This document shows, one piece after another, positions 1 through 39,403 of a DNA stretch of 64,000 nucleotides. Made by a program: the position numbers and the translations under genes. The DNA lies in contig JADZFK010000097.1 of NCBI GenBank assembly GCA_020849945.1, positions 1 to 64,000 of the forward strand, read 5' to 3'. Source of the DNA: Pirellulales bacterium. GTDB taxonomy: Bacteria; Planctomycetota; Planctomycetia; Pirellulales; Lacipirellulaceae. The first letter of the stretch is position 1. Each line of letters starts with the position of its first letter. The notes beneath the pieces were generated by a model. It saw only the letters and a program-made list of their open reading frames with translations, was not told where the DNA came from and made no database searches.

Positions 1-2
1 AC

Positions 3-116
3 GCCGCCCTCAGCCTCCTCCGCCTCGCCAACATCCAAGAAATCGCACCCACCCTCCGCGAATTCGCCTATCAACCCCGGAAACTCTTACGCTTCCTCGG
101 CATTATGAAAAACTGA
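3..116 (+). CDS. C-terminal fragment of a probable transposase (ISAs1-like), truncated by the window edge
   Basis: Open frame from the window edge translates to AALSLLRLANIQEIAPTLREFAYQPRKLLRFLGIMKN*. The stop codon overlaps GATCGGCCCTGGT, which matches a MITE end at 38058-38070. Confidence 0.45.
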   Translation, partial: AALSLLRLANIQEIAPTLREFAYQPRKLLRFLGIMKN

Positions 117-232
117 TCGGCCCTGGTTGTATCCCTGTGCGAGTTGGCACTTGTGGTGTCGGGTGGCTACAATGCGGCTTCACGGCAACAGGTTATCGAT
201 TAGGAGCACGTCGCATGGGTGCTTGCGGATGC

Positions 233-36754: not shown

Positions 36755-37810
36755 TTAGAAGAGAACCGAATTCTTTTTTACGAACTCGACCAATTCGCTC
36801 AAGTGGGCGTAGGCCACACAACACGAAGTATCGGCGGCACCGTAGTACACCGCGAGCCGATCGCTCGCCCTGTCGTGCAATGCGGCACAGGGGAAGACGA
36901 CATTGGGCACATGGCCAAACACTTCATAGTCGGCCTCGGGCGTGAGCAAATGCTGGTTCACCCGGTAAAGCACGCGCCACGGCTGCTCGCGATCGAGGAT
37001 CGCCGCGCCCATGCTGTAAACGAAACCGTTGCAGGTATCCATTACGCCGTGGTAGATCATCAGCCAGCCGTCTTCAATTTCAATTGGGATCGGCCCCGCG
37101 CCGATCTTGGTGCGTTGCCACCACTGGCCCACTTCACCGCCACCGCGTCGCATGACGAGCCGATGCATGCCCCAATGGCACAGATCGGGGCTTTGGCTCA
37201 CGTAGATATCGCCAAACGGCGTGTGTCCGTCGTCGCTCGGACGGCTCAGCATGAAGTACTTGCCGCCAATCTTCCGCGGAAAGAGGACACCGTTGCGGTT
37301 AAACGGCAGGAAGGCATTTTCCAACCGTTCGTAGGTTTTGAAATCGCGTGTGGCAGCGATGCTGATCGTTGGGCCGTTGTGCCCGCCACACCATGTGATG
37401 TAATACGTTCCCTCGATTTCGCACAGCCGCGGGTCGTAGGCGTAGTCGGCCTGCGAATTCGGATCGCCTTTGGCGAACTTGATCGGTGCCGGATCGATCT
37501 CCCATGCAAGGCCATCGCGGCTCCAACCCACATGCAGGTGAGGAAAGCGGTCTCTCTTTTCCAACCGAAATACACCGACGAACGAATCGCCGAACCGGGC
37601 CACCGCGCTGTTGTACACGCCCTGAACGCCCGGCATGTGATGCCGACCAATCACCGGGTTGAGCGAGTGCCGCCACACGACCGAGTGATCCTGGGACGGG
37701 CGATCCTCCCACGGCATCGTGGCAGGTTCGAGCCTGGCCACGGGATGGGAATTCGTCGCATCCTGATCTTTCGCAAGCGGATTGCGAGCGGGGGCTGCTG
37801 AGGTTTTCAT
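36755..37810 (-). CDS. Glycoside hydrolase family 130 beta-mannoside/manno-oligosaccharide phosphorylase-like
   Basis: GVYNSAVARFGDSFVGVFR; GHTPFGDIYVSQSPDLCHWG; WWQRTKIGAGPIPIEIEDGWLMIYHGV. Confidence 0.9.
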   Translation of the reverse strand: MKTSAAPARNPLAKDQDATNSHPVARLEPATMPWEDRPSQDHSVVWRHSLNPVIGRHHMPGVQGVYNSAVARFGDSFVGVFRLEKRDRFPHLHVGWSRDGLAWEIDPAPIKFAKGDPNSQADYAYDPRLCEIEGTYYITWCGGHNGPTISIAATRDFKTYERLENAFLPFNRNGVLFPRKIGGKYFMLSRPSDDGHTPFGDIYVSQSPDLCHWGMHRLVMRRGGGEVGQWWQRTKIGAGPIPIEIEDGWLMIYHGVMDTCNGFVYSMGAAILDREQPWRVLYRVNQHLLTPEADYEVFGHVPNVVFPCAALHDRASDRLAVYYGAADTSCCVAYAHLSELVEFVKKNSVLF

Positions 37811-37925
37811 TTTGAAGTTTCTTTTGCAGTTTCTATGGAATTCTATCGAAGGAGAAATCGAACGGCTCAGGAACGACTGAGGATTCCATATTCCCCTTTA
37901 GGCCGATTGGACTTGGGCCATGCGG

Positions 37926-38070
37926 CAGGGCCGATCACTTTTTCAATTTGGGCGAGAGCATTGGAAACGAGCCGGAAGCGTCAGCGAGGGAAAGTTGCTT
38001 TTTCCCTCGCTGACGCTTCGGGTTCGTGAGTCCTCACTGCCCCGAACATGAATAACGGATCGGCCCTGGT
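37926..38070. mobile_element. MITE-like element, 145 bp, with TIRs and 8-bp target duplication
   Basis: Left end CAGGGCCGATC, right end GATCGGCCCTG(GT); flanked by CCATGCGG at 37918-37925 and 38071-38078; internal 27-bp arms at 37967-37993 and 38001-38027. Confidence 0.85.
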
Positions 38071-38127
38071 CCATGCGGTTCGCTGGTTGACATGGGATAA
38101 CGACGAGTGGATAATATCCCTAGTATT

Positions 38128-38139
38128 TAAACTAGTTTA
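38128..38139. promoter_or_regulatory. Candidate operator palindrome upstream of the LacI gene
   Basis: TAAACTAGTTTA, perfect 12-bp palindrome in AT-rich DNA between divergent genes. Confidence 0.35.
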
Positions 38140-38344: not shown

Positions 38345-39403
38345 ATGTCCTCCTCTCAGGTTCCTCGATTAAAAGACGTTGCCCGCGCCGCCAATGTGTC
38401 GCTGGCTGCGGCATCGCGTATTTTGCGCGGAGATCGGAAGCGATTCGGCGAGGAGACGTGCCGCCGCGTTCTGGAGGCCTCACAGAAACTCGGTTGGCGA
38501 CGAAATCTACTTGTCAGCGGCATGCAAACGGGGCGCACGCAAACCGTCGGCGTATTGATACCGCCTTTTGATTCCTACTGGATAAGTGTTCTCTCGGGAA
38601 TTCATGAAGCCCTTACCGAGTCGGAGTACCTGCCCATTACCGTTTGGGTTGGCAGCTTGGGCGATATGCCCCACTTTGAAACCGAGGAAGCTCGGGGGCT
38701 GGAGCTGATTAACCGCCTGCTCGATCGCCGAGTTGATGGGCTGATCATGTGGCCGCCTTTCGGGCTGAACTACTATCACCACTTTCCCGAGTTCGTCAAG
38801 CGCCGCGTTCCGGTTGCTGTGATCGATCATTATTCCTCGGTAGCCGATTCTGTCGAAACCGATGAAAAACAGGCCACCGCTTTGGTGGCCGAGCATCTGC
38901 TAAGCCTTGGGCATCGCCGCATTGCCTGTCTTTCCAGCCGCGAAGCTCCTTCGCAAACGTGGGCCATCAAACGCCGCGCATCATTTGAAGAGGCGCTCCG
39001 AAACAGCGGCACCGTTCAGTTTCAAAGTTGGCACCTCAATCAGCAGGGAACCGATGGCCCGGAGGTTGCGCGATCGTTACTGACGAGCGGCTTGAAGCCC
39101 ACCGCCGTCTTTACCGTTTCCGACCACGAAGCGGCCTTCGTGTATTCGGCAGCAAAGGAGCTTGGGCTTTCGATTCCCGGCGACCTCTCTGTGGTGGGCT
39201 TCGCCGATCTCGATTTCGCGGCGACCCTTGTGCCGCCGCTCACGACCATCCGCCAGCGACCGGAGGAAATCGGCCGTCTCTCGGCCAAGCTGATTATCGA
39301 TCGCATAGAAGGTAGGATTGCCGACGAAGCTGCCCCCACGACCGTTTGCGTGCCGGCCGACTTGGTCGAACGTGCTTCAACGGCCCGTGCGCCCTCGAGT
39401 TGA
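38345..39403 (+). CDS. LacI family transcriptional regulator
   Basis: RLKDVARAANVSLAAASRILRGDRKRFGEETCRRV; periplasmic-binding-like C-terminus. Confidence 0.93.
   Translation: MSSSQVPRLKDVARAANVSLAAASRILRGDRKRFGEETCRRVLEASQKLGWRRNLLVSGMQTGRTQTVGVLIPPFDSYWISVLSGIHEALTESEYLPITVWVGSLGDMPHFETEEARGLELINRLLDRRVDGLIMWPPFGLNYYHHFPEFVKRRVPVAVIDHYSSVADSVETDEKQATALVAEHLLSLGHRRIACLSSREAPSQTWAIKRRASFEEALRNSGTVQFQSWHLNQQGTDGPEVARSLLTSGLKPTAVFTVSDHEAAFVYSAAKELGLSIPGDLSVVGFADLDFAATLVPPLTTIRQRPEEIGRLSAKLIIDRIEGRIADEAAPTTVCVPADLVERASTARAPSS

Follow-up and report, generated by a model that had tools for sequence, protein, structure and literature searches.

A short element between a GH130 gene and a lacI promoter

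The 64,000-nt stretch of DNA analysed here (hereafter the window) carries a GH130 gene and a divergently oriented lacI-family gene, and part of the region between them is occupied by a short element bounded by inverted and direct repeats. The locus raises the question of what this element is, how it came to lie there, and whether its arrival changed the control of a sugar locus. Our analysis indicates that it is very probably a non-autonomous MITE that was moved in trans by a resident ISAs1-family transposase, having captured a REP-like core, and that landed by the lacI promoter. The features of the locus are as follows.

36755 to 37810, minus strand: GH130 beta-1,4-mannooligosaccharide phosphorylase gene (Pfam Glyco_hydro_130)
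37916 to 37925, plus strand: left 10-bp target duplication, GGCCATGCGG
37926 to 38068, plus strand: MITE copy of 143 bp; divergence from the genome consensus (144 bp), 11.2%
37926 to 37936, plus strand: left terminal inverted repeat (TIR), CAGGGCCGATC; pairing continues inward, imperfectly
37967 to 37993, plus strand: left REP-like arm of the core hairpin, a degenerate copy
38001 to 38027, minus strand: right REP-like arm, TTTCCCTCGCTGACGCTTCGGGTTCGT
38058 to 38068, minus strand: right TIR, GATCGGCCCTG
38069 to 38078, plus strand: right 10-bp target duplication, GTCCATGCGG, with one mismatch to the left copy
38087 to 38115, plus strand: lacI promoter, TTGACA-17-GATAAT, of the same layout in relatives G001 and G085
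38128 to 38139, no strand: predicted palindromic operator, TAAACTAGTTTA, kept in relatives
38345 to 39403, plus strand: gene for a LacI-family regulator

The preliminary description had proposed a 145-bp element with ends CAGGGCCGATC...GATCGGCCCTG, flanked by 8-bp direct repeats of CCATGCGG. Both ends and both 8-bp repeats were present, but the element measures 143 bp and the true duplication is 10 bp long, identical at 9 of 10 positions. The right end was placed at 38068 because other copies end at ...GATCGGCCCTG, and the GT at 38069 to 38070 belongs to the duplication. The TIRs of the window copy are 11 bp long and perfect. The two 27-nt arms reported earlier were found at their positions, 93% complementary around a 7-nt loop, and the absence of coding capacity was borne out by the size of the element. 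The whole 143 bp was predicted to fold into a single long hairpin; the z-scores relative to dinucleotide shuffles were -10.5 for RNA and -8.7 for DNA. Sub-threshold Rfam matches to miRNA-type hairpins were dismissed as chance matches to any long hairpin.

In all 11 relatives examined, the GH130 and lacI genes were adjacent. The MITE ends and arms were absent from the orthologous intergenic region in every one of these 11 genomes, which argues against a sequence conserved at this locus; the intergenic DNA even of the nearest relatives, G001 and G085, had diverged too far for an alignment over the insertion point that would show an exact empty site. Between the two genes, 9 of the 11 relatives also had the palindrome TAAACTAGTTTA, with at most two mismatches, and the arrangement TTGACA-N16/17-ATAAT followed by the operator was the same in G001 and G085. 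The palindrome probably serves LacI autoregulation and possibly also control of GH130.

Counted with its duplication, the MITE stops 8 bp short of the conserved lacI -35 box, on the upstream side. An effect on control of the sugar locus is possible, and could take the form of a longer or structured GH130 leader or of replaced sequence upstream of the -35 box; the element's position close to the promoter, with the GH130 start on one side and the conserved operator on the other, suits this idea. However, the lacI -35 and -10 boxes and the operator lie intact to the right of the insertion, with spacing as in relatives, and we regard altered control as a tentative reading that is on balance doubtful. 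What the insertion did was to separate GH130 from the operator.

The element is a dispersed MITE with a 10-bp target duplication

A search of the source genome for further copies, as the preliminary description had advised, returned many, and the element is therefore not confined to this locus. By blast, 40 places out of 190 candidates were scored, and a copy was present in 40 of 40. Perfect 10-bp ends at MITE spacing were found at 35 places, and the palindromic core, allowing up to three mismatches, was found 68 times (reversed-pattern control, 0); these counts and the folding z-scores speak against a chance resemblance. From the source-genome loci, 63 distinct TIR-bounded copies were collected. 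The majority (52) were of the hairpin type, with a consensus of 144 bp and a divergence of 2.1 to 20.3% (median, 5.9%; n = 52). The remaining 11 had the same ends around unrelated interiors, suggesting that it is the ends that are mobilised. Because the window copy is diverged, the insertion at this locus would be an older one, not a recent one.

When both flanks could be scored (45 copies), an exact 10-bp duplication was found in 12, and a duplication matching at 8 or more of 10 positions was found in 22; randomly paired flanks, self-pairs aside, almost never matched to this extent. Roughly half of the copies had no duplication that could be recognised. With the empty site reconstructed, the ORF running across it had a median length of 148 aa, compared with 332 aa at control positions, and insertions therefore favour non-coding DNA. 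The window element is short and non-coding, has TIRs and a target duplication, and belongs to a set of dispersed copies, which together are the features by which a MITE is recognised; copies, duplications and ends all upheld the earlier view of a MITE inserted in the GH130/lacI divergent region. No match was found in the viral contigs searched, and no direct case of excision or insertion polymorphism was seen. MITEs of three relatives, G001 (same genus; 157 bp), G062 and G046, had the same ends, different interiors and exact 10-bp duplications.

Further variants were noted in the source genome. Type B MITEs (L032, L036, L066, L272 and L273) and type C MITEs (L033, L270 and L271) have ISAs1-type ends and interiors unrelated to the hairpin. 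Also, a 74-bp copy at L092:1149-1222 (G000:C232:5148-5221) retains both ends and has no hairpin, owing to an apparent deletion between repeated CCCGAA stretches; the core can thus be lost.

A candidate autonomous partner lies at the start of the window

The ends of the MITE had been likened to those of the ISAs1 family, and the window itself begins with a sequence that bears on this assignment.

1 to 125, plus strand: 3' end of a candidate autonomous ISAs1-family IS; the contig starts inside the IS

Positions 3 to 113 correspond to the last 37 transposase codons (AALSLLRLANIQEIAPTLREFAYQPRKLLRFLGIMKN), followed by a stop and then by a terminal repeat, ...CTGATCGGCCCTG, that ends at 125. The right end of the IS (window positions 107 to 125, and also in contigs C55, C118 and C188) ends in AAAAACTGATCGGCCCTG, a terminus of about 20 bp that it has in common with the MITEs. 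Four contigs (C55, C97, C118 and C188) start with the same 124 to 125 bp, and this common start indicates an IS of several copies that interrupted the assembly, its body apparently having been collapsed as a repeat. A search of the source-genome contigs with the ISAs1 profile gave no match, because the body of the IS, for which left end and activity were likewise unseen, is not assembled.

A remnant in G010 shared 88% identity with the 37-aa C-terminus; this remnant directly extends an ISAs1 profile match (NF033564 positions 271 to 314, E 5.7e-14) and has the same terminus, ending in CAGGGCCGATCAG. The peptide also aligned, at 50%, with the tails of G020 genes confirmed as ISAs1 by the profile. 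With the exception of the G010 remnant, the ISAs1 genes of relatives had other ends, and the exact IS pattern had no match in GTDB contigs. Members of the ISAs1 family duplicate 8 to 10 bp of target, and the 10-bp duplication measured on MITEs with these ends falls in this range. The preliminary assignment is thereby supported by the IS end in the window, by the common terminus and by a C-terminal peptide that continues the ISAs1 profile in relatives, and we judge the case for ISAs1-type MITE ends, built on these sequence comparisons, to be strong but not complete. Since the G010 remnant and the G020 tails match the peptide, mobilisation of the MITE by an ISAs1-type transposase is most likely. 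Like an ISAs1-family IS (NF033564), the MITE ends in the CAGGG-type terminus of the resident IS, whose transposase C-terminus in turn matches ISAs1 genes of relatives; unlike such an IS, the MITE has no transposase, and its full-length partner is absent from the assembly.

The REP-like core occurs between unrelated ends across Planctomycetota

The arm of the core, AACCCGAAGCGTCAGCGAGGGAA, occurs as an inverted pair that forms a hairpin doublet. When 118 arms were examined in the source genome, TIR-bounded elements accounted for 102; another 9 lay at the edge of a contig or locus, and 7 belonged to elements of which one end had decayed; free-standing arms numbered 0 of 118. In GTDB the arm was found in at least 85 stretches and, among the matches listed, 84 were titled as planctomycete lineages and 1 only as "bacterium". 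Of 392 genomes sampled from the phylum, 10 contained the exact 19-mer, which reached high copy number in three of them (107 in the source genome, 76 in G548 and 106 in G260); its distribution is therefore patchy, and the same count ruled out an arm ubiquitous in the phylum. Outside the source genome, inverted arm pairs lay between AGCAGGCTGCTGAAAAAGT-type ends in HKST-UBA26, between CCAATGGCACTCACTTTG-type ends in ZH-3NOV15-plancto2, and between CTGGACAGCGCCACTTT-type ends, adjoining CTAG-like flanks, in Aporhodopirellula, RI_301, casp150-mb.251 and G499. At least three MITE end types besides the ISAs1 type, and so at least four across the phylum, thus hold the REP-like doublet. In G548, arm pairs also occurred alone, around variable inserts.

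Arms were found near Y1_Tnp genes at 2 of 5 loci in G548 and at 4 of 11 loci in G260. Some of these genes, in both genomes, had arms on both sides, and matched variant arms were seen at L299. The Y1 proteins near arms gave weak matches to IS200 and REP-transposase profiles, below the curated cut-offs, and fell far below the NCBIfam RAYT cut-off. Given the measured arm density of G548, the P value for arms at 2 of 5 loci was about 0.04; because this enrichment is modest, we treat the link between arms and RAYTs as suggestive only. In the source genome, none of the four Y1_Tnp genes had arms nearby and, since no arm-flanked RAYT gene was found there, membership among REPINs, which flank a cognate RAYT, is not claimed for that genome.

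These distributions bear on what the mobile unit is. The doublet could be a mobile module that has joined MITEs of unrelated ISs again and again across Planctomycetota, giving dual-host elements that would spread through a DDE transposase at the outer ends and a RAYT-type transposase at the inner arms, or persist with the help of the hairpin; we consider this broader idea unlikely, though arguable. It is quite improbable that the mobile unit at our locus is the inner REP doublet itself, moved as a REPIN by a RAYT/IS200-like transposase, with the outer CAGGGCCGATC repeats as a recurrent target or decoration. The lone arm pairs of G548 and the Y1_Tnp genes with arms on both sides, including the matched variants at L299, would fit such a unit, but in the source genome all arms lie within the MITE and none of its Y1_Tnp genes is arm-flanked; moreover, the 10-bp duplication abuts the outer ends, and some MITEs that share these ends and show 10-bp duplications have no arms. 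Least credible of all is that the copies have ceased to act as transposons and are retained for a function, such as that of a hairpin that sits at transcript ends or stabilises mRNA, for although very strong folding, mainly non-coding locations and the divergence of the window copy would agree with this, dispersal is indicated by exact target duplications, by the many copies of little divergence (from 2.1%) and by an orthologous locus free of the element in 11 relatives, and a search for an intrinsic terminator at the window copy predicted none.

Two further observations concern the arms. Head-to-tail arm arrays with a spacing of about 27 bp were seen at L172 and L178, in a Phycisphaerae MAG and a Planctomycetales MAG. 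At L286 and L292 of G548, predicted ORFs terminate in SPKRKRG or TRSVSEG, the arm read as protein, and such tails in planctomycete proteins may be marks of arm repeats.

Relation to known repeats and proposed history of the insertion

Like other bacterial MITEs, the element is short and non-coding, has TIRs and a target duplication, and is present in many copies at mainly non-coding sites; unlike them, its core is a REP-like doublet common to MITEs with other ends. A REPIN is by definition a doublet of short repeats in inverted orientation (Bertels and Rainey 2011, PMC3116915). The core resembles REPINs and their RAYTs in being such a doublet, in forming a hairpin and in deriving from a high-copy repeat, and other planctomycetes have the doublet in many copies, near some Y1/HUH transposase genes. 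It differs in that the doublet here lies within ISAs1-type ends with a 10-bp duplication, and in that single arms, judged by eye, pair weakly internally. Tagged REPs of the GTAG and CGTC superfamilies have been reported from Planctomycetes, some REP dimers lying inside longer palindromes (PMC3733652); the arm has a likeness to these, but no GTAG or CGTC terminal tag is established for it. None of the planctomycete genera looked for is named in that report, and the literal motif was not found in the papers searched. A MITE with a REPIN-like core is a variation on known kinds and not categorically new; what is new is the 10-bp duplication, the IS end within the window, which identifies the likely driver, and a REP-like core common to other MITE types.

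In the history that we favour, a planctomycete REP-like inverted doublet (a REPIN-like hairpin) would have been captured between ISAs1-type ends. The ISAs1-family transposase of the same genome would recognise these ends in trans, and the MITE would have inserted mostly into non-coding DNA with duplication of 10 bp of target, so that in the source genome the doublet would now multiply only as a passenger of the ISAs1-type ends. At the present locus, an older copy would then have come to lie between GH130 and the promoter of lacI.

MITEs and REPINs usually count as distinct kinds of passive repeat, each with its own transposases. With the same REP-like hairpin in several MITE end types, a single phylum offers a natural collection in which to ask whether REP doublets owe their capture to chance, through their abundance, or are kept for spread, tolerance or expression. 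These repeats also explain many contig breaks in the source assembly, and the window documents an insertion at the promoter of a sugar regulator.

A minor observation at the same locus concerns the GH130 gene, of which the first ~30 codons (37717 to 37810) were not conserved in most relatives. The Pfam match began at residue 31, and the true start may be Met32 (37717).
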